NCBI GenBank assembly: GCA_938010435.1
Contig: CALLUS010000017.1
Location: 1-64,000 of the forward strand
Origin: an uncultured Rhizobiaceae group bacterium
GTDB taxonomy: Bacteria; Pseudomonadota; Alphaproteobacteria; Rhizobiales; Rhizobiaceae
DNA length: 64,000 bases
Direction: 5' to 3'
Within the stretch, counting starts at the first letter, position 1. The number at the start of each line of letters is the position of its first letter. Made by a program: the position numbers and the translations under genes. The notes beneath the pieces are model-generated. The model saw only the letters and a program-made list of their open reading frames with translations, was not told the DNA's origin and searched no databases. Positions 44,764-63,981 of this stretch are shown piece after piece.

Positions 44764-44924
44764 GGCTTGTCCTCGCTTTCGATAATGCTGTTTGCTGCAG
44801 CATCAAACCGATCACGATTGTTGGGCCAAAAGGCATAGAGTAAGACAACAACCGACATTCCCATAAGGTAAAACAACCCGTAGGATTTAGAAAACGCAAC
44901 GAGAGTATTGTGATCAAAGTCCAT
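44754..44924 (-). CDS. ccoQ: cbb3 oxidase subunit IV
   Basis: This 56-residue protein begins MDFDHNTLVAFSKSYGLFYL, a typical FixQ/CcoQ start with one membrane helix and a charged C-terminal end. It lies between ccoO and ccoP. A longer open frame extends upstream into ccoO, but the CcoQ start is clear from homology and position, one base after ccoO ends. CcoQ stabilises the oxidase complex. Confidence 0.88.
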   Translation of the reverse strand: MDFDHNTLVAFSKSYGLFYLMGMSVVVLLYAFWPNNRDRFDAAANSIIESEDKPCQ

Positions 44925-44925
44925 A

Positions 44926-45663: not shown

Positions 45664-45668
45664 ATCGA

Positions 45669-47306
45669 TCACTCCGCCGGTTGAAGAGTTGCAACAGATT
45701 GATCGACAGACTCAGTGTCTGTTTCAGTTGCCATACGAGTGGTCATCCAAACATTGTAAAGACACAGAATGGTTCCCGTTAAAAACAACAACCCGCCGAT
45801 ACCCCGTGCCACATAATAAGGTCGCATAGCATCTACAGATTCCATAAAGGAATAAGCCAATGTGCCTCCATCATTGTATGTGCGCCACATCAAGCCCTGA
45901 ATGATACCTGCATTCCAAAGCGCGAAGACGTAGACAACTGTGCCTGCAAGTGCGAGCCAGAAGTGCACCTCAATCAAGCGTGCCGAATACATGCTTTTCC
46001 GTTTCCACAACCAAGGCACCAAGGCATAGAATGATCCAAATACAATCATTGCCACCCATCCTAAAGCTCCTGAATGTACGTGGCCCACTGTCCAATCCGT
46101 ATAGTGTGACAGGGAATTCACTGGCCTGATTGCCATAAAAGATCCTTCGAATGTGGACAATCCGTAAAAAATTGCAGCAACCATCATAAAGCGCAGAACC
46201 GCATCGTCGCGGACACGATGCCAAGCGCCGTTCAAAGTCATAAGAGCATTCCCTGCGGAGGCCCATGACGGCACCAGCAACATCACTGAAAAGCTCATAC
46301 CCAAGTTTTGAACCCAATGGGGAAGCGCGGTGTAGTGAAGATGGTGAGAGCCTGCCCACATATAGAAAAATGTAATGCCCCAAAAACTGATGATCGACAT
46401 CCGATAGGAATAGATAGGTCGTTGAGCACGCTTGGGCAGATAGTAATACATCATGCCAAGGAATCCGGCGGTCAGAAAAAACGCAACTGCATTGTGACCA
46501 TACCACCACTGGGTCATGGCATCTTGAACACCCGAAAACAAAGAGTAGCTTTTTGCTGATCCCCAAGACAAAGGAACAGCAAGATTGTTCACGATATGGA
46601 GAACAGCAACCACCAAAATGAAAGCCATATAATACCAGTTAGACACATAAATATGCGGTTCTTTACGTCGGGCCAATGTCCAGATGTAAAGACCGAAATA
46701 AGACACCCAAACAATCACCAACCAGATATCCGCGTACCATTCCGGTTCAGCATATTCGCGTGACTGGGTGATCCCCATAAAGTAACCGGTGACACCAAGC
46801 AGGCAGAAAAGATTGTAACCCCAAAGCACAAACCATGGCAGCACCTGACTGGGCAAACGCGCCCGTGAGGTACGTTGAACCACATGAAATGATGTTGCGA
46901 TCAGTGCATTACCGCCGAAACCAAATATGACGCCTGTGGTATGTGAAGGACGCAACCGACCAAAGCTCGACCACCCTTCTGAGAAAGTCATATCCGGGAA
47001 TGCCATAAGCCAAGCAATCCAATCGCCGATGAACATACCAAATATACCCCAGATCAGTGCCAGAAAAATACCGACTTTGCTGGGGTCATCATAATAAGAT
47101 TGAGAACGATCTTCACTTGGTTCAGGTTTATACAGATTGCGGGCACCCACAATGATGGCCAGACCGCCAGCAGCCACAAACAGCAAAGCATGAATGCCAA
47201 GAATGTCGTTTCTACCCAAAATAGCCAGAGTGAAACCACCAATCAATATGGCGAGCCCTATCGCAATAATATTTTGACGTTCGCTACTGGTAAGTTGTGC
47301 CATCAT
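45669..47306 (-). CDS. ccoN: cbb3 oxidase catalytic subunit I
   Basis: This 545-residue haem-copper oxidase subunit has about fourteen helices. It contains QWWYGHNAVAFFLTAGFLG, SHHLHYTALPHW and DWTVGHVHSGALGW, whose histidines bind haem b, haem b3 and CuB. The tyrosine in WYGHNAVAFF and nearby residues match C-family oxidases rather than A- or B-family. It reduces oxygen with high affinity at the inner membrane. It is preceded at 36 bases by two small genes in the same direction and followed by ccoOQP. Confidence 0.96.
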   Translation of the reverse strand: MMAQLTSSERQNIIAIGLAILIGGFTLAILGRNDILGIHALLFVAAGGLAIIVGARNLYKPEPSEDRSQSYYDDPSKVGIFLALIWGIFGMFIGDWIAWLMAFPDMTFSEGWSSFGRLRPSHTTGVIFGFGGNALIATSFHVVQRTSRARLPSQVLPWFVLWGYNLFCLLGVTGYFMGITQSREYAEPEWYADIWLVIVWVSYFGLYIWTLARRKEPHIYVSNWYYMAFILVVAVLHIVNNLAVPLSWGSAKSYSLFSGVQDAMTQWWYGHNAVAFFLTAGFLGMMYYYLPKRAQRPIYSYRMSIISFWGITFFYMWAGSHHLHYTALPHWVQNLGMSFSVMLLVPSWASAGNALMTLNGAWHRVRDDAVLRFMMVAAIFYGLSTFEGSFMAIRPVNSLSHYTDWTVGHVHSGALGWVAMIVFGSFYALVPWLWKRKSMYSARLIEVHFWLALAGTVVYVFALWNAGIIQGLMWRTYNDGGTLAYSFMESVDAMRPYYVARGIGGLLFLTGTILCLYNVWMTTRMATETDTESVDQSVATLQPAE

Positions 47307-49445: not shown

Positions 49446-49523
49446 AGAAAATTGCTATTGAACGGTTAGACATGTTGCTTTCTCATAAGCGTGCAGAAGG
49501 CAAAGTTTGATTGGGAGGTCCGG

Positions 49524-50606
49524 TTGCCAACTATACGTTTCGAGCAAGTGGAAAAAAGTTTTGGTGCGGTTCGCGTTCTGCCTCCGTTGGATCTCACATT
49601 AGATGATGGCGAGTTTACGGTGCTTGTAGGACCATCAGGGTGTGGCAAATCGACAACCCTTAGGATTTTAGCCGGCCTTGAAGAATTAAGCGGTGGTGAA
49701 ATTTACTTTGACGAGAAACCGATCAGCAATCTGGCCTCAAAAGAACGCGACCTTGCGATGGTGTTTCAAGATTACGCACTTTACCCGCACATGAATATTG
49801 CAAAAAATATGTCGTTCGCACTGCGTTTGAAAAAGACGCCCGCTGCGGAGATCGAGACCAAAGTTAAACGCGTCGCCGATATGTTGAACATCGGCCATTT
49901 ACTTGACAGAAAGCCGGCTGAACTTTCAGGAGGCCAAAGGCAACGGGTGGCAATGGGGCGTGCACTGGTGCGCGATGCATCCACATTCCTGTTTGATGAA
50001 CCTCTATCCAACCTTGATGCCAAACTGCGCGGAAAAATGCGCACTGAACTGGCAGAGATGCGCGATACACTCGACAAGAACATGGTCTATGTCACACACG
50101 ACCAAATTGAAGCAATGACTTTAGGCGACCGGATTGTCGTCATGTCGGAAGGTGTTATCCAACAACAAGGCACACCAGAACAATTGTTCAAGGAACCAGC
50201 AAACAAATTTGTTGCCGGCTTTATCGGCAGCCCGACAATGAATTTTCTGGATGCCGAATTAGTGTCTGAAAAGAGCAAGCTCTGGGCACGTGGTGATGGA
50301 TTTAATCTGCCATTGTCAAAGGAAATGACTGCAACTTTGAAGGGTTATTCAAAGAAAGAAGTCACACTCGGCGTGCGCCCATCATCGTTTAGCACTGATA
50401 CTAAAGCCGGTGCTCCTATCGAATTACGGCTCGTTGTTTCTGAATATCTTGGAGCACAATCAACGCTCGTCACCAAATGTGGTGAAGCCGAAGTTTTAGT
50501 TGAGCACGAGAGTTCAAGCCCTGTGCGTACCGGCGGCACACTCAAATTTGGAGTTCGCACAGAAGAGTTAATGGTGTTCGACAAAGAAACTGAACGACGA
50601 CTTTAA
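49524..50606 (+). CDS. sugar ABC transporter ATP-binding protein (UgpC/MalK type)
   Basis: The start TTG at 49524 is preferred because GGGAGG lies five bases upstream and homologues begin close to MPTIRFEQVEKSFG; a GTG at 49491 is the alternative. The 360-residue product has Walker A GPSGCGKST, the ABC signature LSGGQRQRVAMGRA, Walker B FLFDEPLSNLDA and the H-loop YVTHDQIEAMTLG. A C-terminal TOBE-like domain follows. It is the first gene of the operon, whereas the substrate-binding gene is usually first. Confidence 0.92.
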   Translation: MPTIRFEQVEKSFGAVRVLPPLDLTLDDGEFTVLVGPSGCGKSTTLRILAGLEELSGGEIYFDEKPISNLASKERDLAMVFQDYALYPHMNIAKNMSFALRLKKTPAAEIETKVKRVADMLNIGHLLDRKPAELSGGQRQRVAMGRALVRDASTFLFDEPLSNLDAKLRGKMRTELAEMRDTLDKNMVYVTHDQIEAMTLGDRIVVMSEGVIQQQGTPEQLFKEPANKFVAGFIGSPTMNFLDAELVSEKSKLWARGDGFNLPLSKEMTATLKGYSKKEVTLGVRPSSFSTDTKAGAPIELRLVVSEYLGAQSTLVTKCGEAEVLVEHESSSPVRTGGTLKFGVRTEELMVFDKETERRL

Positions 50607-50629
50607 AATACAGCAAGGGAGGAACCACT

Positions 50630-51979
50630 ATGCTGAAATCACTAAACGCAACATTCGTTGCTACAACTATGCTTGTCGCCACCGCGACAACAACAATTGC
50701 CTGGGCTGACGGCCATTCGAAAGGACCGTACGACGACTACAAAGGTCAAACAGTCACGGCCATTTTTCCGGCCCATCCCCATTATAATGCGGTGATGAAA
50801 GTGCTGCCTGAGTTCACAAAAGAGACCGGCATCAAAGTTGAAGTCGATCAACTGCAATATTTGAAGCTACGTGAGAAATCCACCTTGGAGCTTACAAAAC
50901 GCCAGGGCGATTACGACCTAATGTCTTATGTGGTGTTTTCTAAAGCGGATTATGTTTTTGCAGATCAGCTTGAAAACCTCGCTCGTTTCTTCATGAACCC
51001 GAAATTGGCAGATCCTAAATATGATGCCGATGACTTGATCGATGGTTATGTGCAAAATATCGGTGTGGCCGGTGGTAAAAAAGGTTATCTGCCTGGACCT
51101 ACCGGATCTTTGTTTGGAATTCCTTTCGGATCAGAAACATCTGTGCTGGCTTATCGCAAAGATATTTTCGAAAAGCACGGGATTGAAGTTCCAAAAACGT
51201 ATGACGCATTGTTGAAAGTGGCTTGCCAAATTCCAGAAGTCGAAAAAGGTATGGGTGGCATGGCCTCTCGCGCAGCTTCAGGTCACCAAGCCAGCCACGC
51301 ATTCTTGCTACACCTTGCTCCCCTCGGTGGTCGCGTGTTTGACGATGAGTGGAACCCGATCATCAACAACGAAGCAGGCGTCAAAGCGGCAAATGCTTTG
51401 AAGACCATTGTTGATTGCGGTCCTGAAGGCGCAACAACTTTTGGCCCGGCCGAAGCTGCGGCTTCGTTCAGTCAAGGCACTTCAGCCATGTTCATGGACT
51501 CCATTGCCTTTGCCGCGGGATTTGAAGATCCATCCAAGAGTAAAGTCGCTGGTAAAGTTGGCTATGCATTACATCCGGAAGGTGTTCGTCGTGGATCGCA
51601 AACAGGCGGTTTTGGTGTTGGTATTCCGCGCAATGCTAAAAATAAAGAAGCTGCATTTTTGTTGATGCAATGGCTCACTTCCAAAAAGGGTGACCTGATG
51701 GTTGCTATGCAAGGTGGGAATCCATCACGCTTCTCAACCTATGAAAATGCTGATCTGAATGCCAAATACCCCTATTCAGCAACATTTGGTGAGGCATTGA
51801 AATATGCGGATCCGGATTGGCGTCCAATTATTCCAACATGGGGTAAAATCAACGCAGATATTGGTACATCGATGTCAAAAGTTTTGACCGAAGGCCTTGA
51901 CCCAAAAGAAGCTCTGGATGGCGTGGCTGAACGCGCCAAAAAGATTATGGACGAAGCCGGATACTACACCTGGAAATAG
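50630..51979 (+). CDS. sugar ABC transporter substrate-binding protein
   Basis: This 449-residue periplasmic family-1 binding protein has a signal peptide over about residues 1-27 (hydrophobic core TMLVATATTTIAWA). It has no lipobox cysteine, so it is soluble. RKDIFEKHGIEVPKTYDALLKVA and GGFGVGIPRNAKNKEAAFLLMQWLTS are typical of this class. It lies 24 bases after the ATPase gene. Two hairpins follow its stop codon and may increase its mRNA relative to the permeases. Confidence 0.9.
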   Translation: MLKSLNATFVATTMLVATATTTIAWADGHSKGPYDDYKGQTVTAIFPAHPHYNAVMKVLPEFTKETGIKVEVDQLQYLKLREKSTLELTKRQGDYDLMSYVVFSKADYVFADQLENLARFFMNPKLADPKYDADDLIDGYVQNIGVAGGKKGYLPGPTGSLFGIPFGSETSVLAYRKDIFEKHGIEVPKTYDALLKVACQIPEVEKGMGGMASRAASGHQASHAFLLHLAPLGGRVFDDEWNPIINNEAGVKAANALKTIVDCGPEGATTFGPAEAAASFSQGTSAMFMDSIAFAAGFEDPSKSKVAGKVGYALHPEGVRRGSQTGGFGVGIPRNAKNKEAAFLLMQWLTSKKGDLMVAMQGGNPSRFSTYENADLNAKYPYSATFGEALKYADPDWRPIIPTWGKINADIGTSMSKVLTEGLDPKEALDGVAERAKKIMDEAGYYTWK

Positions 51980-51988
51980 TCTGCCTAA

Positions 51989-52020
51989 GGTGCTTCTCTG
52001 ATCAATATTAGAGAAGCACC
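51989..52020 (+). terminator. intercistronic hairpin 1 (partial terminator or mRNA-stabiliser)
   Basis: GGTGCTTCTCT at 51989-51999 pairs perfectly with AGAGAAGCACC at 52010-52020, an 11-base stem with a 10-base loop. No U-tract follows directly, so it is more likely a 3'-end stabiliser or attenuator than a full terminator. Confidence 0.7.
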
Positions 52021-52023
52021 CAC

Positions 52024-52056
52024 CTGCGGTGCTGTACAATTTATTGGGCACCGCAG
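52024..52056 (+). terminator. intercistronic hairpin 2
   Basis: CTGCGGTGC at 52024-52032 pairs perfectly with GCACCGCAG at 52048-52056 around a 15-base loop, only three bases after hairpin 1. The tandem pair fills the 114-base gap between the binding-protein gene and the first permease. Confidence 0.65.
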
Positions 52057-52093
52057 CCTTTATCTCTTCATGTCCAGTTCAGGAACGCATTGA

Positions 52094-53011
52094 ATGACGA
52101 CCGCTTCAAAACTTAACCGATTGACGCCTTATTTTTTCTTGGCGCCTGCTGTGTTGTTGCTGATTGTCGCATTGCTGTATCCGATCGGATATATGATTTA
52201 CGCAAGTTTTCTGGACTGGCGACCTTCGCAATATATCAGCGAAGCAGAGTTCGTAGGCTTTAGAAATTACATCAACCTTTGGAACGATGAAGCGTTCCGT
52301 GAGAGTTTTGGCGTCACACTCAAATTTGCAGCGGTGGTCGTTACATTGGAAATGGCGCTTGGCGTAGGGTTGGCTCTTCTGTTGGATAGAAACCTTCGTG
52401 GCATGGCGGCCCTGCGAACAATTTTCATATTGCCCATGATGATCGCCCCAATCGTGGTCGGCCTTATGTGGCGCTACATGTATCATCCGACCGTTGGAAT
52501 TTTTAACCGAACCCTAAAAAATTGGGGTCTGGAACCCATACCATGGCTGTCTGATGGCACCTGGTCATTTATAGCCGTTGTGATTGCCGATGTTTGGCAG
52601 TGGACACCTTTCATATTCATTCTATCACTCGCAGCACTTCAATCATTGCCTCAATCAGCACTTGAAGCAGCAGAGTTGGACGGAGCATCCGGTTGGCAAA
52701 AAATTTGGCATATAAAACTACCGTTGATGATGCCTGTTCTGATTGTAGCACTTCTGCTTCGACTGATTGACGCGTTCAAAGTACTGGAAGTTGTTTTGGT
52801 TATGACAAATGGGGGACCGGGGCTTTCGACCGAGATTTTGAGTCTGCGTATTTTCCGTACAGCACAAGAATTTCAAGAACTTGGTGTGGCGGCCGCTATG
52901 TCTAACTATCTTTTAATTCTACTGATGCTGCTGACAACAATCATGTTTGTTTACAACAAAGCAGTTGAAAATCGTGCAGCACGTCTGCGTGCAGCAGCGC
53001 AGGAGACGTAA
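52094..53011 (+). CDS. sugar ABC transporter permease (MalF type)
   Basis: This 305-residue inner-membrane permease has six hydrophobic helices. The EAA loop, EAAELDGASGWQKIWHIKLPLM at about residues 195-216, contacts the ATPase. LTPYFFLAPAVLLLIVALLYPIGYMIYASF at the start is typical of MalF/UgpA-like partners. Its stop is four bases before the second permease start. Confidence 0.92.
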   Translation: MTTASKLNRLTPYFFLAPAVLLLIVALLYPIGYMIYASFLDWRPSQYISEAEFVGFRNYINLWNDEAFRESFGVTLKFAAVVVTLEMALGVGLALLLDRNLRGMAALRTIFILPMMIAPIVVGLMWRYMYHPTVGIFNRTLKNWGLEPIPWLSDGTWSFIAVVIADVWQWTPFIFILSLAALQSLPQSALEAAELDGASGWQKIWHIKLPLMMPVLIVALLLRLIDAFKVLEVVLVMTNGGPGLSTEILSLRIFRTAQEFQELGVAAAMSNYLLILLMLLTTIMFVYNKAVENRAARLRAAAQET

Positions 53012-53015
53012 GGGT

Positions 53016-53891
53016 ATGTCTGTACAAACCAACAAGAGCTCCAGTCCTGCGTTTTATGCTTTGATGATCTGTTTGATCATTATGGCCATGGGTCCAATCA
53101 TGTTGATGTTGGCCACATCTTTCAAAACCAATGTTGACGTGAATGACGTGAATGTAGGTTCTTTCTTCTTCACACCAACGTTGCGCAACTATGAGGCTGT
53201 GCTTTGCAATGTGCTTTGGTATTCACCATCCAGTGTTGATTACTGTGACCCAACGTTTGGTCGCGCTCTTGGCAATTCAATTTTCATCGCGCTCGTTTCA
53301 ACGGCCATCACATTGATTATTGGTTGCATGGCAGCTTATGCCCTCGTGCGTTTCAGATTTATGGGTCGCGGCCCGATCTCAATGACAACCCTTTTGATGC
53401 GTATGGTTCCACCCGCAGTGCTGCTCGTACCGGTGTTTGGGATTTGGACGTTTCAATATGGTTTGGATGGCACTTATACGGGGATCATTCTTGTCTACGT
53501 GGCTATGAATCTGCCTTTCGTGATTTGGATTTTGCAAAGCTTCATCGTGCAGGTTCCTATTCAACTGGAAGAAGCGGCAAAGATGGATGGGGCAAATCCG
53601 TTCCAAGTATTCTTTATGGTAGTTCTTCCAATCATAAAGCCCGGCCTTGCGGCTGCAGCGATTTTCACTTTCAGAATTGCATGGAATGAATTTTTGCTCG
53701 GCAACGCATTGTCAGGCCGGGGCACAAGAACGGTTCCTGTCACAATCGTGAATTCAATTACGGAATACGACATCGATTGGGGAGTGATTATGGCTACTGG
53801 TATGCTGCTTGCCATTCCCCCGGTCATCTTCACTTTCGTCGCTTCAAAGCAGATTATCACAGGCATGACAGCGGGGGCTGTAAAGGGCTGA
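53016..53891 (+). CDS. sugar ABC transporter permease (MalG type)
   Basis: The ATG at 53016 begins MSVQTNKSS; an upstream in-frame start at 52947 would overlap the other permease. The 291-residue product has six helices and the EAA loop EEAAKMDGANPFQVFFMVVLPIIKPG at about 196-221. An inserted periplasmic stretch with CNVLWYSPSSVDYC near 68-81 contains two cysteines. The stop overlaps the next start (TGATG). Confidence 0.92.
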   Translation: MSVQTNKSSSPAFYALMICLIIMAMGPIMLMLATSFKTNVDVNDVNVGSFFFTPTLRNYEAVLCNVLWYSPSSVDYCDPTFGRALGNSIFIALVSTAITLIIGCMAAYALVRFRFMGRGPISMTTLLMRMVPPAVLLVPVFGIWTFQYGLDGTYTGIILVYVAMNLPFVIWILQSFIVQVPIQLEEAAKMDGANPFQVFFMVVLPIIKPGLAAAAIFTFRIAWNEFLLGNALSGRGTRTVPVTIVNSITEYDIDWGVIMATGMLLAIPPVIFTFVASKQIITGMTAGAVKG

Positions 53892-54598
53892 TGATGGACT
53901 GGTTGTTTGCGGCAATAGATACCTCTCGTGCGCATCTGGTATCAGATACTGTTGCTTGGCATGGCAGGATAATGGTTGCTGCATGGGGCATTCTGTTTCC
54001 AAGTGGTATTCTCATCGCTCGATTTATGAAGACGACTCCGAAACAAAACTGGCCGGAAAAACTCGACAGTCAAGTTTGGTGGCATTCGCATTGGATCATT
54101 CAGTCTTGCGGTGCCGCCTTAGTTGCGTTTGCGGTTTGGTTGATTTGGAACAATTCTGGAGCATCTACCGCCGCATGGATTCATCGGACAATGGGTTGGA
54201 TTGTTGTCAGTTTTTGTATCGTGCAATTTTTGGCTGGTTGGTTGCGCGGCAGCAAGGGTGGCCCAACCGAAATTGCACGTAACGGCAGCCTCCACGGAGA
54301 TCATTACGACATGACGCCACGCAGACTGGCGTTTGAGTATATTCACAAATTCTTGGGTTATTTCGCATTGCTGTTTGCGTGGACCACAACCTTCTTAGGA
54401 ATGTGGGTCGCCAATGGACCGATATGGATGTTCATCATACTGACCGTTTGGTTTTCAACGCTCATTACCATTTTTGCCATACTTCAAAAACATGGAATGG
54501 CACTCGATACTTATCAAGCAATTTGGGGGCCTGACCCAGAGCTTCCCGGAAACCAACGAAAACCCATTGGGTTGGGTGTTCAACGAAAAGCACCATGA
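53891..54598 (+). CDS. cytochrome b561-like membrane protein in the sugar operon
   Basis: The start at 53891 overlaps the permease stop as TGATG; an adjacent ATG follows at 53894. The 235-residue protein has about five helices with repeated histidines in AWHGRIMVAAWG, WWHSHWIIQSCG, WIHRTMGWIVV and YIHKFLGYFALL, the pattern of haem-binding cytochrome b561 and DOMON-associated proteins. It could accept electrons from a periplasmic sugar-acid dehydrogenase or reductase, but no such partner is obvious in the operon. Confidence 0.78.
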   Translation: MMDWLFAAIDTSRAHLVSDTVAWHGRIMVAAWGILFPSGILIARFMKTTPKQNWPEKLDSQVWWHSHWIIQSCGAALVAFAVWLIWNNSGASTAAWIHRTMGWIVVSFCIVQFLAGWLRGSKGGPTEIARNGSLHGDHYDMTPRRLAFEYIHKFLGYFALLFAWTTTFLGMWVANGPIWMFIILTVWFSTLITIFAILQKHGMALDTYQAIWGPDPELPGNQRKPIGLGVQRKAP

Positions 54599-54641
54599 TA
54601 AATATTGAACACCCCAGAATTTCACCGATTGGAACGATGCA

Positions 54642-55583
54642 ATGAAACGCCACATTTTGACTTTTGAAACTTATGACGATTGGGACACAGGCCCGTTGGA
54701 GGCGACATATGTGGTTCACAATCTGCCCCATGGTGGAGAGGTCAGCGACTTGAGCAGTGAGGCGATTGCCAATATTGAAGCATTCGCTTTCAAGGGGCAC
54801 AACAAGTTGGGCGCCGAAACGATGAATGCATTTCCAAAACTTGGAATGATTGCAAACTACGGTGTTGGTTACGATACAATTGATGTTGCTTATGCCTCTT
54901 CAAAAGGGATCAGAGTGACCAATACCCCTGATGTTTTAACCGACGATGTTGCAGATCTTGCAGTTGGTATGGTGATCGCGCAATCGCGTGGAATGGTTGG
55001 GGCCTCAGAATGGATAAAATCCGGTAATTGGGCAAAGAACGGCGCATACCAACTCGGGAACAAAGTCACTGGAAAAAGCGTCGGCATAGTGGGGCTTGGT
55101 CGCATTGGTCGTGCAGTTGGGGAACGCCTTCAACCATTCGGTGGAGAAATTCACTATTATTCCCGATCGGCGAAAGGAACCAACGGATGGACGCATCACG
55201 AAGATATTGTGGAAATGGCCAAAGCTGTCGACATTCTCATAGTAACTTTGTCTGGCGGACCAGACACAATTGGCATGGTGGGCGTCGATGCCCTTAAAGC
55301 ACTTGGGCCCGAGGGGCTTTTGGTCAACGCATCTCGCGGTACGACTGTTGATGAAGAAGCACTTTTAGAAGCATTAGAAACCAGCACAATTCGTGCAGCC
55401 GCTTTGGATGTGTTTGAAAATGAGCCCAATATAAATCCGCGTTTTTTGACGTTGAACAATATCTTGCTTCAACCCCACCAATCATCAGGAACAACAGAAA
55501 CCCGAAAAGTTATGGGGCAATTGCAACGTGATAATCTAGCTGCATATTTTGCGGGCAAAGAGCTACTGACGCCGGTCAATTGA
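54642..55583 (+). CDS. D-isomer 2-hydroxyacid dehydrogenase (2-ketogluconate/hydroxypyruvate reductase-like)
   Basis: This 313-residue NAD(P)-dependent enzyme has the Rossmann motif GIVGLGRIGRAVG around residues 148-160. The catalytic triad is Arg232 (NASRGTTVDE), Glu261 (FENEPN) and His279 (PHQSSGT). The sequence resembles GhrB/TkrA-type reductases, so reduction of 2-ketogluconate or another 2-keto sugar acid to the hydroxyacid is plausible given neighbouring gluconate genes. It begins 43 bases after the cytochrome gene. Confidence 0.88.
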   Translation: MKRHILTFETYDDWDTGPLEATYVVHNLPHGGEVSDLSSEAIANIEAFAFKGHNKLGAETMNAFPKLGMIANYGVGYDTIDVAYASSKGIRVTNTPDVLTDDVADLAVGMVIAQSRGMVGASEWIKSGNWAKNGAYQLGNKVTGKSVGIVGLGRIGRAVGERLQPFGGEIHYYSRSAKGTNGWTHHEDIVEMAKAVDILIVTLSGGPDTIGMVGVDALKALGPEGLLVNASRGTTVDEEALLEALETSTIRAAALDVFENEPNINPRFLTLNNILLQPHQSSGTTETRKVMGQLQRDNLAAYFAGKELLTPVN

Positions 55584-55668
55584 AAACCAATAAAAATCTA
55601 CAAACTAATTCCGGCGGCATTTTGCTCTGCAATACTGTCATCTCTCTAAACTATGAAGGACAACCGTC

Positions 55669-56409
55669 ATGACAATGATCACGCTGGTAACAGGAGGTGG
55701 GTCAGGCATTGGACGCGCGTGCGCCACGACTTTAGCTAAAAATGGACACCACGTGATCGTGACAGGTCGGCGTATGAACGCGCTTGAGGAAACCGTCAGT
55801 TTAATCGGGGCAAATGCATCTGCCATTGCGTCTGATTTAACAGATCCCGCTCAAGTCGATTCTCTCTATGAGCAAATAGAGGAAGAACATGGGCGACTTG
55901 ATGTCATGTTCAACAATGCGGGCACCAATGTTCCAGCTCAGCCGATTGGCGATATTCTGGTTGAAGATTTTACCAAGATCATCGACATAAATGTAACGGG
56001 TGCGTTCATCGCAGCGCGCGGAGCTTTCAACTTAATGCGCAAACAGAACCCGCAAGGCGGCCGGATTATCAACAACGGTTCGATCTCGGCAACGATGCCC
56101 CGACCCGGATCAACTCCATATACTTGTGCCAAACATGCAATCACCGGGATGACACGAACGATCGCACTCGATGGACGCGCCTACAATATTGCGTGCGGAC
56201 AAATCGACATAGGCAATGCTGCATCTGACATGACATCTTCCATGGGAGACGGAGTTCCGCAAGCCGACCTTTCGATAAAGCCGGAGCCGGTTATGGATGT
56301 ACAAAACGTGGCAGATTCTGTATTGCACATGGCTAATTTGCCACTCGATGCCAACGTCCTATTCATGACAGTTATGGCCACAGCTATGCCGTTTGTTGGC
56401 AGAGGTTGA
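55669..56409 (+). CDS. short-chain dehydrogenase/reductase (SDR), substrate unknown
   Basis: This classical SDR of 246 residues has TGGGSGIGRACA near the N-terminus, NNAGTN around residues 83-88, and the active-site Ser and YTCAK Tyr-Lys pair near 144-160. It is the first of two SDR genes in the operon. By position it would oxidise or reduce a sugar acid such as an idonate or gulonate intermediate, but specificity cannot be read directly. Confidence 0.88.
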   Translation: MTMITLVTGGGSGIGRACATTLAKNGHHVIVTGRRMNALEETVSLIGANASAIASDLTDPAQVDSLYEQIEEEHGRLDVMFNNAGTNVPAQPIGDILVEDFTKIIDINVTGAFIAARGAFNLMRKQNPQGGRIINNGSISATMPRPGSTPYTCAKHAITGMTRTIALDGRAYNIACGQIDIGNAASDMTSSMGDGVPQADLSIKPEPVMDVQNVADSVLHMANLPLDANVLFMTVMATAMPFVGRG

Positions 56410-56506
56410 GCAACACCAACAATGAGTACCCCATTTCCGGTTACAACAGTCAGCGCAGTTATTGCGAAAGACTAAATTACCAATCAAATTCGCGAGACAT
56501 GATATT

Positions 56507-57274
56507 ATGACCCATCCCCTATTTGACCTCACAAACAAAACCGCACTGATCACAGGCTCTTCGCAAGGAATTGGCTTTGCTTTGGCCAAAGGGCTTGCTG
56601 AAGCAGGTGCAACGATTGTCCTAAACGGACGTGATGTGAGTAAACTTGCTGAAGCAACCTCCAGATTGAAAACAGATGGAATAGACGTGCATCAACTTCC
56701 TTTTGATGTGGTCGACCACGCGGCTGTGCAAACGGCAGTCGATAGTTTCGAGAAATCGAACGGCCCAATAGACATTTTGGTAAACAATGCTGGCATGCAA
56801 TTTCGCACCGCTTTGGAAGATTTCCCTGAAGATATGTTCTCTAAACTGCTTGCAACCAATGTGTCATCTGTCTTCAACGTTGGCCAAGCAGTTGCATGCC
56901 ACATGATTGGGCGAAAACGTGGCAAGATCATCAATATCGCTTCTGTTCAAACATCGCTTGCCCGCCCGGGCATCGCCCCATATACGGCAACAAAAGGTGC
57001 TGTGGGCAACCTGACCAAAGGCATGGCTACAGATTGGGCACAGCACGGCTTGCAGTGCAACGCACTCGCTCCTGGATATTTCGACACTCCATTAAATGCC
57101 GCATTGGTCGCTGACCCGGACTTCACTGCATGGCTTGAAAAGCGCACACCGGCCGGACGTTGGGGTAAAGTTGAAGAACTTGTTGGGGCATGTATTTTTC
57201 TGAGTTCCGCCGCCTCCGAATTTGTAAACGGTCAAACGATCTATGTGGATGGTGGCATAACCGCCAGCCTTTAG
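56507..57274 (+). CDS. gluconate 5-dehydrogenase-like SDR
   Basis: The ATG at 56507 is chosen; an in-frame TTG at 56462 would add 15 residues outside the conserved start. The 255-residue product begins HPLFDLTNKTALITGSSQGIG, the classical IdnO/Gno opening. It has NNAGMQFR and Tyr-Lys in PYTATKGAVG and ends with YVDGGITASL. Such enzymes reduce 5-ketogluconate to D-gluconate. With gluconokinase ten bases downstream and an idonate-type dehydrogenase next, the assignment fits. Confidence 0.87.
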   Translation: MTHPLFDLTNKTALITGSSQGIGFALAKGLAEAGATIVLNGRDVSKLAEATSRLKTDGIDVHQLPFDVVDHAAVQTAVDSFEKSNGPIDILVNNAGMQFRTALEDFPEDMFSKLLATNVSSVFNVGQAVACHMIGRKRGKIINIASVQTSLARPGIAPYTATKGAVGNLTKGMATDWAQHGLQCNALAPGYFDTPLNAALVADPDFTAWLEKRTPAGRWGKVEELVGACIFLSSAASEFVNGQTIYVDGGITASL

Positions 57275-57284
57275 GAGAGCAGGC

Positions 57285-57842
57285 ATGTCACAAGAATTGT
57301 CCAGATTATTCATCGTTATGGGCGTATCTGGATGCGGAAAATCCAGCATCGGCAAAGCATTGGCTTCACGGTTTTCCGGAACCTATTTGGAAGGAGACGA
57401 TCTCCATCCTGCAGCCAATATTGAACTAATGAGTGCAGGCACTCCCCTTACGGACAAAGATCGATGGCCTTGGTTGGAGAACGTTGCAAAGGCAATGGCA
57501 GTGAAAAAAGGAGTGGTGTTTACAGGCTGTTCAGCTCTTAAAAAATCTTACCGTTCATTCTTGATCGAAAAAGCGGGCGAACAAATTTTTTTCATTCATC
57601 TTGCTGGAACAAAGCAGCTGATAGCAGATCGAATGTCCAAGAGATCAGGGCACTTCATGCCTGTTAAACTGCTCGACAGCCAGTTCGCAACACTTGAACC
57701 ACCGGGACCTTCTGAAACTGCGCTCACAACCGATATATCGGAAACACCGGATAAAATTTTACAACACATTGTGCTGTCGCTCGAACAGGATAATTCAGTG
57801 ACAACTGAATCAAATCCGAAGAAGCTCCAAACCCAAATTTAG
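57285..57842 (+). CDS. gntK: gluconokinase
   Basis: This 185-residue ATP-dependent kinase phosphorylates D-gluconate to 6-phosphogluconate. The P-loop MGVSGCGKSSIGKALA spans about residues 12-27, followed by EGDDLHPAANIELMSAGTPL and DRWPWLENV, all highly conserved in GntK. SALKKSYR forms the later substrate segment. The short extra C-terminal tail is hydrophilic. It lies eight bases before the idonate-type dehydrogenase. Confidence 0.95.
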   Translation: MSQELSRLFIVMGVSGCGKSSIGKALASRFSGTYLEGDDLHPAANIELMSAGTPLTDKDRWPWLENVAKAMAVKKGVVFTGCSALKKSYRSFLIEKAGEQIFFIHLAGTKQLIADRMSKRSGHFMPVKLLDSQFATLEPPGPSETALTTDISETPDKILQHIVLSLEQDNSVTTESNPKKLQTQI

Positions 57843-57850
57843 GACAATAC

Positions 57851-58882
57851 ATGCGTGCCATCGTCATCCACAGCGCAAAAGATTTGCGTATAGAAGAAAC
57901 AGAAGTTTCTGAACCAAGAGAAGGAGAAGTGCTCGTACGCATCACCACCGGCGGTATTTGCGGCTCGGATTTGCACTATTACAATCACGGTGGCTTTGGA
58001 TCGATCCGATTAAAGCAACCCATGATTCTTGGACATGAAGTTTCTGGTCGGATTGAAGCTCTTGGTCAAAATGTAGTTGGATTAGATGAAGGAGACCTTG
58101 TTGCAGTTTCACCGTCGAGGCCTTGCAATCAATGTAATTATTGCCTCAAAGGGCAACAGAACCATTGCGAAAACATGCAGTTTTATGGTTCGGCAATGCC
58201 ATTCCCTCACATCCAAGGTGCTTTTCGCGAACTGATCATTGCGAAGGCAAGTCAGTGCGTCAAAGCGAATGGCCTCACCAGTGGCGAAGCAGCAATGGCT
58301 GAGCCGCTTTCTGTTTGTTTGCATGCCACCCGCCGGGCAGGCGAGATGCTGGGAAAACGGGTCTTAATCACTGGGTCAGGTCCAATTGGCACTCTATCCA
58401 TTCTTGCGGCAAGAGCTGCTGGTGCGGCTGAAATTGTCGTAACAGATTTGACAGATTCAGCCCTCAATTTCGCCAACAAAGTGGGTGCAAACATAGTCAT
58501 CAACACAGCAAAACATGCTGATGCATTAAAACCGTATCAAGCAGGTAAAGGGTATTTTGATGTTCTTTTCGAATGCTCTGGTGCGGCCCCGGCACTTGCC
58601 GCAGGAATTGCATCAATGCGTCCACAGGCTGTTGTCATGCAACTTGGTTTGGGCGGAGACATGAACGTGCCAATGCAGGCATTGACGGCCAAGGAACTTG
58701 AACTGCGTGGTTCTTTCCGGTTCCACGAAGAATTTTTCATGGCTGTTCAACTCATGCAAAGTGGTGTGATTGATACAAAACCATTGATCTCTCATACGGT
58801 GCCATTGGACGATGCCGTTAAAGGGTTTGAGATAGCAAACGATCGAAGCCAAGCTATGAAAACCCAAATAAATTTCGCGTAA
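57851..58882 (+). CDS. idnD: L-idonate 5-dehydrogenase-like zinc alcohol dehydrogenase
   Basis: This 343-residue medium-chain dehydrogenase has the catalytic zinc site Cys37 (ICGSDLHYYNHGG) and His62-Glu63 (LGHEVSG). Structural zinc cysteines lie at 92, 95, 98 and 106, and a nucleotide-binding segment follows (VLITGSGPIGTLSILAARAAGA). GSDLHYYNHGGFG is characteristic of IdnD, which oxidises L-idonate to 5-ketogluconate. Together with the SDR and gluconokinase it completes an idonate-to-6-phosphogluconate route. Confidence 0.9.
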   Translation: MRAIVIHSAKDLRIEETEVSEPREGEVLVRITTGGICGSDLHYYNHGGFGSIRLKQPMILGHEVSGRIEALGQNVVGLDEGDLVAVSPSRPCNQCNYCLKGQQNHCENMQFYGSAMPFPHIQGAFRELIIAKASQCVKANGLTSGEAAMAEPLSVCLHATRRAGEMLGKRVLITGSGPIGTLSILAARAAGAAEIVVTDLTDSALNFANKVGANIVINTAKHADALKPYQAGKGYFDVLFECSGAAPALAAGIASMRPQAVVMQLGLGGDMNVPMQALTAKELELRGSFRFHEEFFMAVQLMQSGVIDTKPLISHTVPLDDAVKGFEIANDRSQAMKTQINFA

Positions 58883-58909
58883 GTCAGCGGATCGCAAGAG
58901 GAATAACCA

Positions 58910-59809
58910 ATGTCATTTTTTGAAGCACATGATCCTGAATTTTCAACCTATGTTCTTGGCAACGCTCCGGTAAAACAATTGGCGACAGGGTTCGATTGGG
59001 TCGAAGGCCCGGTTTGGTTCGGCGATGCCAATTGTTTGCTTTTTTCAGATATTCCAAACAACCGCATTATGCGATGGACGCCCGATGAAGGTATCTCGAT
59101 CTATCGCGAACCATCAAATTATTCAAATGGCCACACACGTGATCTCCAAGGACGTCTTATCAGCTGCGAACACGGCACCCGCCGTGTGACGCGTACTGAG
59201 CACGACGGTTCCATCACAGTGATAGCCGACAGTTATGAGGGCAAAAAATTAAATTCACCCAATGATGTTGTGGTGAAGTCAGATGGGTCGATTTGGTTCT
59301 CTGACCCCCACTACGGTATCATGACCAATTATGAAGGCTATAAAGCTTCACAAGAACTGCCCTGCAATGTGTATCGGGTCAGTCCAGACGATCTTTCCAT
59401 AACCGTAGTAGTGACAGACATGGACTGTCCAAACGGACTGGCATTTTCACCTGACGAAAGCCTGCTTTATGTCGCTGACACAGCCGCAATGTTCAAAGAA
59501 GATGCGGAACGCCATATTCGTAAGTACAAAGTGGACAATGACATCACAAAAGATGGTCAAATTTTTCACACAATATCACCAGGTGCTTCGGACGGGTTTC
59601 GGCTTGATACAGATGGAAACATTTGGTCCTCAGCAGCTGATGGAGTGCATTGCATCAACCCGATGGGAAAATTGTTAGGTAAAATCCTAGTGCCGGAACT
59701 CGTATCAAATGTCTGTTTTGGCGGCAGAGCAAAGCACCAGCTTTTCATCACCGCAACCACGAGCATCTACACCATAACGCTGAACCGGCAAGGCGCTCAA
59801 TATCCGTAA
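58910..59809 (+). CDS. SMP-30/gluconolactonase-family lactonase
   Basis: This 299-residue six-bladed beta-propeller has the metal-binding residues typical of SMP-30: Glu32 in FDWVEGPVWF, Asn in LNSPNDVVV and Asp in the CPNGLAFSPDESLLYVAD segment. SDIPNNRIMRW is another family hallmark. It would open a sugar lactone such as gluconolactone or an idono/gulonolactone to the acid used by the operon. It is the last gene of the rightward operon. Confidence 0.9.
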   Translation: MSFFEAHDPEFSTYVLGNAPVKQLATGFDWVEGPVWFGDANCLLFSDIPNNRIMRWTPDEGISIYREPSNYSNGHTRDLQGRLISCEHGTRRVTRTEHDGSITVIADSYEGKKLNSPNDVVVKSDGSIWFSDPHYGIMTNYEGYKASQELPCNVYRVSPDDLSITVVVTDMDCPNGLAFSPDESLLYVADTAAMFKEDAERHIRKYKVDNDITKDGQIFHTISPGASDGFRLDTDGNIWSSAADGVHCINPMGKLLGKILVPELVSNVCFGGRAKHQLFITATTSIYTITLNRQGAQYP

Positions 59810-59923: not shown

Positions 59924-60181
59924 TTACTGACTCGATAGGCGATCAAAAGCCTTTTGAAGGTAGGTCAACGACAGGAATACGAGGATAGCCCAGATAATGA
60001 GCTCGTAAGGTCCCAAGCCAGTTCCGCGCAACCAACGGGCGAGTAGGCCACCATTTGGACGAAGTTCTTGGATGCCTAAAAGGCCACTACGCGGCCAGAG
60101 GTCGAAAATCCAAAAACGGGAAATGTATAGAAGAATGAGACAGACCAATGCGGTTATAGCCAATCCAAAAAAGCGTTTCAT
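59924..60181 (-). CDS. 85-residue membrane protein of the Rieske/GltS-like cluster
   Basis: This small protein has two hydrophobic helices (about residues 5-24 and 60-76) around a proline/glycine-rich loop containing LWPRSGLLGIQELRPNGGLL. I recognise no family. Its ATG overlaps the stop of the 253-residue gene upstream by four bases, and it is the last of five translationally coupled genes. It is probably a small structural or haem-supporting subunit, which is inference. Confidence 0.7.
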   Translation of the reverse strand: MKRFFGLAITALVCLILLYISRFWIFDLWPRSGLLGIQELRPNGGLLARWLRGTGLGPYELIIWAILVFLSLTYLQKAFDRLSSQ

Positions 60182-60939
60182 TTTGCCAACCCAATCGATG
60201 TCTCATCGATTTTTAGAACCAACATATCGCCTCGACGTTCCAGCTCACCTTCAAGCTCAATAAACTGCCCCACTTTGTCATAGAGCGATTGAAGCATGGG
60301 ACCACCATCTGCGCTTGCAACAAGTAGAAATTCGCTTCCCTCAACTGGCTTGCTCGACACAAACACTGGTGGAATGCCGCCAATAAGACAGAGGTTTGCA
60401 CAGGCTTTGTGAGCAAGTCCACGACCGGGTTGCATGGCCCCTGCAAGGCACTTCCCGTCACAAATTTCTCCAGCCAAGCGCCATTTTCCCAAAGGTTCAC
60501 TGGTCGGAATTGAAGCTTCTCCTTCAGCCGCTTTTAACCCCGCTTTGCCACCACGCAGTTGCAGCATATCCAATGTGCCACGCTCTAAAATAACGCCCGA
60601 TGCTGTGGCCAGTTTTCCGTGGAGCGGTGTTGCGCGGTCCATCACGCCTGCTTTACCGCCGCCGGTTAACATAAGCGTATGGCCAACGGCTATCCGGTCA
60701 TTTCCCTTTGTGACACGCAACAGGGGATAAGGTTTCAACTCCACAACGCCAGTTACAGTTTGGCGGCCATAATCGAAACGAAATCCTGCCTTTCCAGCAT
60801 CATCTTGCGTTGCACCAATTACGAGGGAGGCCGCGAGAAAACCACCAACAAACATCAACGACGCCATCAATAAAAACGACCGCAAGCCTTTTGGAACTTT
60901 GAGATAGCCAACGAAGAAGGGTTCAGTTTTCTGCGTCAT
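60178..60939 (-). CDS. membrane-anchored protein with a four-cysteine domain
   Basis: This 253-residue protein has one N-terminal membrane helix (about residues 20-42) and a domain predicted to lie outside the membrane. That domain contains GEICDGKCLAGAMQPGRG and HKACANLCLIGGIPP, with cysteines 160, 164, 180 and 184 and His177. The paired CxxxC arrangement suggests a metal, disulfide or haem site. I do not recognise a named family. The start overlaps the previous stop by one base (TAATG). Confidence 0.72.
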   Translation of the reverse strand: MTQKTEPFFVGYLKVPKGLRSFLLMASLMFVGGFLAASLVIGATQDDAGKAGFRFDYGRQTVTGVVELKPYPLLRVTKGNDRIAVGHTLMLTGGGKAGVMDRATPLHGKLATASGVILERGTLDMLQLRGGKAGLKAAEGEASIPTSEPLGKWRLAGEICDGKCLAGAMQPGRGLAHKACANLCLIGGIPPVFVSSKPVEGSEFLLVASADGGPMLQSLYDKVGQFIELEGELERRGDMLVLKIDETSIGLAK

Positions 60940-62000
60940 TATGAACCACCCTTTGGTTTCGAAAGAACAAGAGGCTCTACAAACGTGCCCGGTTGGTTTG
61001 CTTCCGGATCGACCAATACACGGTCATTTTCGACTGCAAGATTGTATGTGGGAACAGTCTCCGTAAATGGTGCAGGAGAGCGCCCGTTGGTTACGTCATA
61101 TTGAAATCCATGCCACGGACAGGTCACTAGGCAGTTGAGAATTTTGCCTTCACCCAGAGGTCCATTCTGGTGGGCGCAGGCATTGGAGATTGCGGAAAGC
61201 TTTCCATCTTGAAGAAAGACAGCAACCCTATCGCCTTTCGGCAATTTGGCAATTTTCGCATAGCCTTCATTCATCTCACTGGTGGCGCACACTTCAATCC
61301 ACCCATCGGTGGATTTTTCATGCTCGCCCGCCTTTTTTCTTTCCGAAATTGCCGCAAGAAGATGAAGGCCAACCACAGCACACGCCACCACAACAAACAG
61401 GATTGGGAAGGCTTGATTTTGTTGGTCTTGAAGGATGCCAAAACTCACATGGGCAACCACTGAAATATAGGCCGCATAGATGAGGTAGTGCAGTGCCTTC
61501 CAAATTGGAGGTGTCAGAAACTTCATCCAGAAATCGTGACTGGTGGTTGCCAAAATCAACAAGCAAAGCAGCGCAAAAATGCCGAATGCTTCAAAAGGAA
61601 AACCAAGTAATTGGGTGTAGCTGGTGTTTGCAAATAACAGAGCTTCGTATTTCCCTGCTTTTGAAAACGCGAAATACCAGTCAAGGATGTAGCCTGCGTG
61701 GGCCAACGCAACAAATGCTGTCATCACCCCGAAATGGCGCCTGTTATAGAGCAAGGGTAAAAATCGATTGTCCAACCGCGCGAGTGGGCCAATGGTCAAA
61801 ATAACCGACAACATCAAAAACGCGCAGGAACCAAAAGCACGCGCATTGTGAACCTGCGCGTTTATTGGGCTTTCATGGTTCAAAATATGCGGTGTGATTT
61901 CTATGAAAACCCATAGATAGCACACAACCGCAAACAACATGATGCCGTCGTACCACCATTTATTCTTGTTCCACTGAACAGGGATATATTTGACACTCAT
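60939..62000 (-). CDS. ferric-reductase-like membrane domain fused to a Rieske domain
   Basis: This 353-residue protein begins with about six membrane helices whose histidines (including H101 in ALAHAGYILDWYF, H171 and H184) resemble the haem-binding ferric-reductase/YedZ domain. From about residue 233 a Rieske domain carries CAHQNGPLG (Cys275 and His277) and CPWHGFQYD (Cys294 and His297), a complete 2Fe-2S ligand set. The fusion would pass electrons between membrane haem and an iron-sulfur domain. It overlaps the adjacent genes by one and four bases. Confidence 0.85.
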   Translation of the reverse strand: MSVKYIPVQWNKNKWWYDGIMLFAVVCYLWVFIEITPHILNHESPINAQVHNARAFGSCAFLMLSVILTIGPLARLDNRFLPLLYNRRHFGVMTAFVALAHAGYILDWYFAFSKAGKYEALLFANTSYTQLLGFPFEAFGIFALLCLLILATTSHDFWMKFLTPPIWKALHYLIYAAYISVVAHVSFGILQDQQNQAFPILFVVVACAVVGLHLLAAISERKKAGEHEKSTDGWIEVCATSEMNEGYAKIAKLPKGDRVAVFLQDGKLSAISNACAHQNGPLGEGKILNCLVTCPWHGFQYDVTNGRSPAPFTETVPTYNLAVENDRVLVDPEANQPGTFVEPLVLSKPKGGS

Positions 62001-62374
62001 GCGAAGCCCACTTCTAACATAGAGAGTTTCTTGGGTTCAAAATCAATGGGGGGCGATTGCCGGATCATTTGGCCAATAACTATCGTTGCTACAACTACAG
62101 CCGCCAATAAAAATGCAGTGATGCGGTGTGCATTGCGAATTGGCATGTGACGTTTGAACCAATTATCCCTGCCCGTTTCCAACACATACCAACGCCATAA
62201 AACGAGTGGCCATATCATAATGACGCCAGGAACAAGCAATGGGCGAAAGATGTATGCGCCACGGGCATCTTCATCAATTCTGTCGATACCAATTACTAGA
62301 AATACAAGAGCGACGATAACACCAGTTATCGCCCACCCTTTGCAGACAAGGAGGATCGCTTCAGCTTCGTTCAC
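61997..62374 (-). CDS. 125-residue membrane protein of the Rieske/GltS-like cluster
   Basis: This protein has three hydrophobic helices and a short charged loop, VLETGRDNWFKRHMPIRNAHRI, containing two histidines. The start is a GTG at 62374 overlapping the previous stop (GTGA), with GGAGG six bases upstream inside the end of the preceding gene. No named family is recognised. It is likely a partner of the ferric-reductase-like protein. Confidence 0.72.
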   Translation of the reverse strand: MNEAEAILLVCKGWAITGVIVALVFLVIGIDRIDEDARGAYIFRPLLVPGVIMIWPLVLWRWYVLETGRDNWFKRHMPIRNAHRITAFLLAAVVVATIVIGQMIRQSPPIDFEPKKLSMLEVGFA

Positions 62375-63981
62375 TGCATGCCTCCAAAGTGTACGCCTGA
62401 AATTTCAGTCATTTCTTTCTTCCAGGTCGTGAGGTCATCGTGGTTGAATTTGGACAGATGGTCATGGCCGCACGCCCGCGCCATCACCTGCATGAGTTCC
62501 ACACTTGCTTCAAAGAAATTGGTGAGTTGCCGTGCAGATTTTTCGACAACCAAACGGCTCACCAAATGAGGTTTTTGCGACGCTATGCCAACCGGGCAGT
62601 TATTCGTATGACACGCCCGCATGGCAATACAACCGATGGCCTGCATAGCGGAATTGGAGAGAGCAATTGCATCAGCCCCCAAAGCGAGAGCTTTGATAAA
62701 ATCAGCGGGTTTGCGCAACCCGCCCGTGATCACCAAGGTTACGTCAGACCGGCCAGATTTATCTAAGTGACGGCGTGCACGTGCAAGTGCTGGAATGGTA
62801 GGTACAGAAATATTGTCTCTAAATATGATGGGTGCAGCCCCTGTGCCACCACCGCGCCCGTCAAGGATTATATAGTCAACACCCACTTCTAAGGCTGCAT
62901 CAATATCTTTTTCTACATGTTGTGCCGAGAGCTTATAACCGATGGGAATTCCACCCGTTCGGTCGCGAACTTCGTCAGCAAATTCTTTAACTTGCGAAGG
63001 ATCAGTCCACTCGGGAAAACGCGAAGGAGAGATCGCATCTTGTCCCGGTTTCAGGTTCCGCACTTCGGCAATTTTATCTTTTACTTTTTTACCAGGCAAA
63101 TGCCCTCCAGTACCGGTTTTAGCACCTTGCCCTCCCTTAAAGTGGAATGCCTGAACTTTGTTCAACTTGTCCCAATCAAAGCCGAAACGAGCTGAAGCAA
63201 GTTCATAGAAATACCGGCTGTTGGCTTCCTGTTCTTGCGGCAACATTCCACCTTCGCCAGAACAGATACCGGTACCTGCTAATTCAGCGCCACGTGCCAA
63301 AGCAATTTTGGCTGGTTCGGAAAGCGCACCGAAAGACATGTCGGAAACAAATAGTGGAATATCGAGTTTCAATGGTTTTTGAGCATTTGGTCCGATAACA
63401 ACCTCGGTCCCAACTGCATCTTCATCAAGCAAAGGCGCCTTATGCAATTGCGCGGTTAAAAGCTGAATATCGTCCCATTTCGGAAGTTGATATCCAGGAA
63501 CACCCATGGCATCCACTTTGCCATGATGACCCGTTTTGGAAAGACCGTCGCGGGCATATTGTTGAATAAGTCCATTGAGCGGTTCTTCTTCCGTACCATG
63601 AGAGGTGTCAGCGTAAAGACCAAGATAGTTGTCACGTTTATAGGGTTGAGGGTTTGCCTTCCCCCAAGCGTTGATCTCATCAGCATCCACGCAAATGTCA
63701 TTTCCTTCTACCCACGACTTGAACATTGGAAGAGCTTCATTGTTGGCGTATTCTGAAACGCCACTGTCCAAACGGTAATCCCAATAGTGAACACCGCACA
63801 TCAGATTGTCACCACTCACAAACCCGTCTGACATCAATGCCCCACGATGAAGGCATCTTCCGTAGAATACTGAGATTTCTTCATCAAACCGCACCACCAC
63901 TAAATCAACTTCTCCAACGAGCGCATAAGCAGGTTTTCTGTCGGGCAATTCGCTGAATTTCGCGACGGTCGTTTTTTCCAT
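62371..63981 (-). CDS. Rieske-fused glutamate-synthase-like FMN protein
   Basis: This 536-residue protein has an N-terminal Rieske domain (about residues 1-105) with Cys43/His45 (GRCLHRG) and Cys62/His65 (CGVHYWDYR). From about residue 190 it is a glutamate-synthase alpha2-like barrel. MSFGALSEPAKIALARGAE, GGQGAKTGTGGHLPGKKV and ITGGLRKPADFIKALALGADAI mark the FMN domain, and Cys451, Cys457 and Cys462 (CIAMRACHTNNCPVGIASQ) give a 3Fe-4S site. The N-terminal glutaminase is absent, so it cannot use glutamine by itself. It leads the leftward cluster. Confidence 0.88.
   Translation of the reverse strand: MEKTTVAKFSELPDRKPAYALVGEVDLVVVRFDEEISVFYGRCLHRGALMSDGFVSGDNLMCGVHYWDYRLDSGVSEYANNEALPMFKSWVEGNDICVDADEINAWGKANPQPYKRDNYLGLYADTSHGTEEEPLNGLIQQYARDGLSKTGHHGKVDAMGVPGYQLPKWDDIQLLTAQLHKAPLLDEDAVGTEVVIGPNAQKPLKLDIPLFVSDMSFGALSEPAKIALARGAELAGTGICSGEGGMLPQEQEANSRYFYELASARFGFDWDKLNKVQAFHFKGGQGAKTGTGGHLPGKKVKDKIAEVRNLKPGQDAISPSRFPEWTDPSQVKEFADEVRDRTGGIPIGYKLSAQHVEKDIDAALEVGVDYIILDGRGGGTGAAPIIFRDNISVPTIPALARARRHLDKSGRSDVTLVITGGLRKPADFIKALALGADAIALSNSAMQAIGCIAMRACHTNNCPVGIASQKPHLVSRLVVEKSARQLTNFFEASVELMQVMARACGHDHLSKFNHDDLTTWKKEMTEISGVHFGGMQ

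Follow-up and report, generated by a model that had tools for sequence, protein, structure and literature searches.

Type 5 CISD proteins are defined by their architecture, in the part of Lin et al. (2011; PMC3174974) drawn on here, as a tandem CDGSH joined to the FMN domain of glutamate synthase, and no function is assigned to them there. According to the sections used of a second source (PMC5676040), the ferric-reductase domain of MsrQ hands electrons outward to the periplasmic MsrP, Fre being a potential donor; in NOX an FNR domain is fused. These are the nearest points of comparison for P1–P5, five minus-strand genes that run from position 63981 to 59924 of the stretch of DNA analysed (hereafter the window), which covers bases 1–64,000 of the 98,963-base contig C17 in a draft genome of 3.57 Mb. 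P1 encodes a soluble flavoprotein and P2–P5 a set of membrane proteins; together with the partners described below, they look like a modular redox system, composed of two separable modules which meet more often than chance and are usually apart.

P1 (536 residues; 62371..63981, minus strand) comprises an N-terminal Rieske [2Fe-2S] domain and an FMN/3Fe-4S glutamate-synthase core, with Pfam matches to Rieske (8.5e-12; residues 5–79) and to Glu_synthase (1e-91; region 189–505); the same scan found no glutaminase family. The core and its cysteines resemble those of the ferredoxin-dependent and NADPH glutamate synthases (GltS, GltB), and the three 3Fe-4S cysteines (C451, C457, and C462) are invariant in all 13 alignment rows; unlike these enzymes, P1 has no glutaminase, a fused Rieske domain, and a changed ligand loop. 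The loop reads KTGTGGH in P1 and its relatives (13/13 rows), whereas glutamate synthases have KPGEGGQ, a sequence with a role in 2-oxoglutarate binding; T291 and H294 of P1, present in each of the 13 rows, align with E and Q, respectively, of the glutamate synthases. Across a wider set of sequences, the GlxD-type, Monoglobus, and GltB rows, as well as one CDGSH-type row (L180), deviate from the P1 loop. In the P1 subfamily the glutamate-synthase fold carries an altered ligand loop; this change, the missing glutaminase, and the complete full-length GltB encoded elsewhere in the same genome led us to reject P1 as a simple glutamate synthase. Type 5 CISD proteins share with P1 the catalytic subfamily, the ligand-loop signature, and an N-terminal histidine-ligated [2Fe-2S] domain, but have CDGSH motifs where P1 has the Rieske CxH..CxxH.

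P3 (353 residues; 60939..62000, minus strand) combines a ferric-reductase/MsrQ-like haem membrane domain with a C-terminal Rieske domain (Pfam Ferric_reduct 6.4e-12 and Rieske 3e-15); its match to the NCBIfam MsrQ model, at 41 bits, lies under the curated cut-off of 130. The Rieske ligands C275, H277, C294, and H297 are invariant in 16/16 rows, as are six further (non-Rieske) histidines. Six membrane spans can be recognised by eye, and a simple window script calls seven segments, two of which overlap; on the basis of loop charges, the Rieske domain is predicted to lie on the cytoplasmic side, with the bulk of P4 outside. Pfam detects an FNR domain in none of the five proteins, and it is the Rieske domain that occupies the corresponding position of P3. 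P3 and P4 are thus like MsrPQ and NOX in having a ferric-reductase-type haem membrane domain and an adjacent gene for a putative periplasmic partner, but a Rieske domain takes the place of FNR or of a separate Fre. The partner in MsrPQ is the molybdoprotein MsrP, whereas here it is a cysteine-rich OB-fold protein; the genome has a single Oxidored_molyb (MsrP-type) match, which falls on contig C28 rather than on C17.

P4 (253 residues; 60178..60939, minus strand), which has one N-terminal span and is predicted to be periplasmic, contains four cysteines (160, 164, 180, and 184) that are invariant in 23/23 rows, and an invariant His177. None of the Pfam or NCBIfam families matches it above noise (its only Pfam match is sub-threshold, E 0.29), and it has no significant sequence relative in the PDB. 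The predicted structure (mean predicted local distance difference test score, pLDDT, 81.7) shows two OB-like beta domains, in the second of which the four invariant cysteines are modelled between its first strand and a helix; when this second domain is modelled alone, the loop between strand and helix is poorly modelled. Structure searches with P4, and with its second domain alone, returned generic OB-fold matches only, and the absence of P4 from the family and structure match lists excludes no identity. A distant, secreted-looking protein in genome G827 shares the motif (35% identity over 75 residues); it keeps the histidine but only three of the cysteines, a pattern that, as far as one sequence can hint, would suit a metal site better than a pair of disulfides. 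The second domain of P4 may be part of a larger family that has no name as yet. At locus L235 (7496–8077), the secreted-looking protein with this motif (194 residues; three of four cysteines and the histidine) lies beside an open reading frame that is SCO-like by eye.

The remaining two genes encode small membrane proteins with, by hydropathy, three spans (P2; 125 residues; 61997..62374, minus strand) and two spans (P5; 85 residues; 59924..60181, minus strand); the same analysis gives one span for P4 and none for P1. Neither P2 nor P5 matches a Pfam or NCBIfam family above noise. The genes overlap throughout: P1/P2 by the four bases GTGA (62371..62374, P1 stop and P2 start), P2/P3 by four (ATGA), P3/P4 by one (TAATG), and P4/P5 by four (ATGA). 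Since the same gene order recurs in other genomes, the arrangement is not due to chance; a promoter and terminator scan found fewer sites than in shuffled sequences and was uninformative. An initial annotation of this DNA had described five overlapping leftward genes for a GltS-like protein with a Rieske domain and no glutaminase, a ferric-reductase protein ending in a second Rieske domain, a four-cysteine membrane-anchored protein, and two small membrane proteins, and the exact coordinates, domain matches, and conserved residues bear this description out. It had also known of no characterised system with this set, and we likewise found no described system with the set, its fusions, or a Rieske/MsrQ pairing among the matches listed for the open-licence literature. 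Judged by sequence, what appears to be new here is a NOX/MsrQ-like conduit with a Rieske input, a type 5 CISD-like flavoprotein with a Rieske domain, and the previously undescribed P4.

The layout of the genes elsewhere shows which of them belong together. A scan anchored on P4 found it in 16 of 385 genomes of the class, and in the 15 for which the layout was counted (the genome of the window being left out) P3 adjoins P4 without exception; a P2-like gene is present in 13 of the 15, some with low scores, P1 stands beside P3–P4 in three (adjacency only), and a gene for a Rieske-thiamine diphosphate (Rieske-ThDP) enzyme in two. One locus of this set (L206) is apparently the same as one found with P1 (L028), the contigs being of equal length. 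P3 also adjoins P4 in all five genomes of the order which have P3 without a close P1 (L168–L172), and across the phylum P4 was found in 8/349 genomes, one of these being a weak partial match. Because of the P4-anchored counts, P3 and P4 are regarded as a near-obligate pair which P2 usually joins, and P1 and the Rieske-ThDP enzyme as separate modules.

A search of the genome collection with P1 yielded 193 confirmed relatives. Counts rest on the best 80, among which the closest are alphaproteobacterial and which include near relatives (eight are titled Tateyamaria); some P1 relatives are annotated as ‘glutamate synthase-related’. Among the 62 loci that have 6.5 kb or more of downstream sequence, the Rieske-ThDP gene follows P1 in 35 (one broken, at L023), P3 and P4 together in 21, and P4, when counted alone, in 22, including a fragment at L023 that has no P3; three weak MsrQ matches, in one of which Ferric_reduct without Rieske was confirmed, were not counted as P3. 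Both the Rieske-ThDP gene and P3 are present in 16 of these loci and neither in 22, whilst the whole of P2–P5 accompanies P1 in 12. L023 (8001–11163) is apparently a decaying copy, in which an intact P1 is followed by fragments of P2, P4, and P5 and a broken Rieske-ThDP frame. The view of the initial annotation that the five genes are one fixed unit does not survive these counts, as the genes lie apart in most loci examined, the very finding that it had named as telling against it. Across 199 genomes of the order, P1 and Rieske-ThDP nonetheless co-occur in 13 (2.6 expected), P1 and P3 in 8 (2.1 expected), and Rieske-ThDP and P3 in 7 (1.0 expected); these statistics ignore kinship and use hand-compiled genome lists, with fragments (G002, G009, and G114) among the 32 P1-positive genomes.

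Rieske-ThDP and an antiporter are frequent partners of P1 that lay outside the view of the initial annotation. The Rieske-ThDP protein has an N-terminal Rieske domain and a pyruvate-oxidase-like ThDP part, for which the closest solved structure by sequence is PoxB (3eya; 2.6e-65); it is like PoxB, or pyruvate dehydrogenase (cytochrome), in its ThDP part and unlike it in the N-terminal Rieske domain. In 27 of the 73 loci with at least 1.7 kb upstream, the gene immediately before P1, and on its strand, encodes a CPA1 antiporter; in the genome of the window a PF00999 (CPA1) antiporter, identified by Pfam and having no RCK/KTN gating domain, is divergent from P1 just beyond the window (C17 64165–65361).

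Some of these associations extend beyond the alphaproteobacteria. Three haloarchaeal plasmids carry both a Rieske-type P1 (58–62% identical) and Rieske-ThDP (57–58%): in Salinirubellus the two are 1.4 kb apart, in Halorubrum ~17 kb apart on one plasmid, and in Halorarius the two flank a PF00999 antiporter. The stretch of roughly 20 kb examined from each of these three plasmids contains a Rieske-type P1 but no P3. A Haloferax plasmid has Rieske-ThDP, with no P1 found within the 18 kb examined, and on a Mycobacteroides plasmid Rieske-ThDP is near a PF00999 antiporter. Two CDGSH motifs, the type 5 CISD architecture of Lin et al. (2011), replace the Rieske domain of P1 in Vibrio (57% identity to P1), in Photobacterium (56%), and in genomes G022, G049, G051, and G078 of the order; assignment to the Rieske or the CDGSH type failed for 7 of 119 loci, a count that includes duplicates, and Pfam confirmed CDGSH in the two scanned. 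A tree needs a single Rieske/CDGSH change, although it left out 3 of 43 rows without the motif, the CDGSH row of G022 among them, its bootstrap had not settled, and its support for grouping all Rieske rows is only 34/0. A Rieske [2Fe-2S] cluster is histidine-ligated, as is that of CDGSH, which argues that the N-terminal domain of P1 may be an interchangeable electron plug. In the CDGSH-type genomes G022, G049, G051, and G078 neither Rieske-ThDP nor a full-length P3 was seen, a sample too small to be used.

We tentatively propose, as a possible rather than a probable reading, that P1 and P2–P5 are a flavoenzyme feeding a Rieske-driven outward electron conduit with a stress-linked role. P1 would be a cytoplasmic enzyme that oxidises a substrate at its FMN, the electrons passing via the 3Fe-4S cluster to its own Rieske domain and, through a presumed contact, to P3; in the conduit they would enter at the cytoplasmic Rieske domain of P3, cross the membrane by way of b haems, in a number that we infer, and reach the periplasmic P4. 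The single membrane electron path that the initial annotation had drawn through all five proteins would be of this kind. In many relatives the Rieske-ThDP enzyme, accompanied by the CPA1 antiporter, would feed electrons likewise. The system may keep envelope targets reduced, or dispose of electrons, under oxidative or electrophile stress, a likely role at which neighbouring genes hint: an ECF sigma factor and a zf-HC2 anti-sigma factor in 5 of the 69 P1 loci that have 3 kb or more of upstream sequence (domains scanned for one pair), genes for TetR, sigma-70, DUF1109, chlorite-dismutase-family, and NrsF proteins after P2–P5 at L185, and, on the haloarchaeal plasmids with relatives of P1 or Rieske-ThDP, genes of redox or metal-stress type. 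A wider form of the proposal, slightly more speculative, makes the Rieske domain the shared plug of a horizontally mobile system; the Rieske-FMN/3Fe-4S and Rieske-pyruvate-oxidase enzymes would there feed a new class of NOX-like conduit and, in P4, a new periplasmic cysteine or metal acceptor, coupled to cation/proton antiport, in alphaproteobacteria, with both soluble enzymes and the antiporter shared with haloarchaea. Were the outward conduit real, a widespread unassigned glutamate-synthase-fold family, CDGSH type 5 proteins included, would gain a function, Rieske ferredoxin domains would be seen to power NOX-type conduits in bacteria, and P4 would be a new transmembrane redox partner. Exchanges between modules (CDGSH in the place of Rieske; P1 loci that have or lack P2–P5) already offer biochemists natural comparisons.

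Several observations weigh against a feed from P1 into the conduit. No P3 lies within 6.5 kb of P1 in 41 of the 62 loci, where P1 must therefore have another or a distant partner, and P1 is not beside P3–P4 in 12 of the 15 class-wide P4 loci (adjacency only); in G072 and G029 the co-occurring modules are on different contigs. The genome of the window, which does have the P2–P5 block, has no Rieske-ThDP, and ECF/anti-sigma neighbours are few. In two genomes P2–P5 follows a glutamate synthase on one strand, in the order gltB-gltD-P2-P3-P4-P5 (G052, locus L170, 6147–14930; G123, locus L169), a layout which fits electron delivery into the enzyme equally; the two are of one genus, the families were tested in L170 only, and gltB is partial in L169. 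This last layout, as if P2–P5 served a glutamate-synthase-type enzyme, is the strongest point for reverse flow, a possible though doubtful reading in which electrons from quinol or the periplasm would pass via the P3 Rieske domain into the 3Fe-4S cluster and FMN of P1, making P1 a reductive synthase or reductase with its Rieske domain as a built-in ferredoxin. In ferredoxin-dependent glutamate synthase, electrons do run from Fe-S to FMN to substrate, but GltBD has its own NADPH subunit. The altered ligand loop of P1 also speaks against reverse flow, as does MsrQ, which, in the text consulted, sends electrons outward to MsrP (PMC5676040). That the modules are instead two separate systems sharing a stress regulon, in which P1 and P2–P5 exchange no electrons directly and Rieske domains were recruited in parallel, is somewhat unlikely. 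Each module does lack the other nearby in most loci, the haloarchaeal P1 stretches are without P3, and stress-type neighbours recur; the gene overlaps run through all five genes, however, co-occurrence exceeds expectation, and three different enzymes are fused to the same type of domain.

Two further readings concern single components. It is very unlikely that P1 works as a glutamate synthase which draws on free ammonia or on an auxiliary glutaminase and has its Rieske domain as the electron donor: the Glu_synthase match, the retained FMN/3Fe-4S core and cysteines, and the annotation of relatives would suit such an activity, but P1 has no glutaminase domain, its loop has exchanged E/Q for T/H in every row, and the genome already has a complete GltB. 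Gating of the antiporter is highly improbable. Kef systems have a flavoprotein subunit, and the redox proteins could in a comparable manner sense and gate the CPA1 cation/proton antiporter, given its place directly upstream of P1 in 27/73 loci, its divergent position in the genome of the window, and the PF00999 genes near relatives on two plasmids, a haloarchaeal and a mycobacterial one; yet CPA1 was not found upstream in the other 46 of the 73, the antiporter in the genome of the window has no RCK/KTN domain, and P2–P5 would be superfluous for such a role.

Other genes adjoin members of the two modules. A SPASM/radical-SAM-like protein is encoded directly upstream of P2-P3-P4 at L215 (5975–7345; SPASM match 3.5e-7, scanned for this locus only) and L216 (5445–6817), and is a possible further client of the conduit. 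A DUF3179 protein (Pfam) lies between P1 and P2 in one alphaproteobacterium (L173, 6375–7808), and proteins with this record name adjoin P1 in Halorubrum (L118, 10726–11700) and Rieske-ThDP in Haloferax (L187, 10059–10997); a profile of the three proteins matched only those three among the loci analysed, and DUF3179 was rejected as a further partner. At L062, L067, L178, and L182, a membrane protein of 219–232 residues adjoins P1 or Rieske-ThDP; it has no Pfam match (two members scanned), by eye resembles part of a K+ transporter, and would fit an ion-transport theme. At three loci of related genomes (L064, L080, and L082), genes for an Oxidored_molyb (MsrP-like) and a Ferric_reduct (MsrQ-like) protein lie ~1–3 kb downstream of P1, one protein of each kind having been confirmed by Pfam.

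Within the window, an ABC transporter and sugar-acid catabolism genes (49491–59809) converge on P5 from downstream; SMP-30/gluconolactonase and a zinc alcohol dehydrogenase were assigned by Pfam and the remaining genes by eye. A functional link between these genes and P1–P5 was dropped because, of 124 loci, L182 alone has the set again near P1, and one other locus shows no more than a single short-chain dehydrogenase/reductase (SDR) match. Further along, a domain scan identifies a COX1-family oxidase subunit (45669–47306), which, together with cytochrome-c-like genes (43870–47306), by eye makes up a cbb3-type oxidase set.

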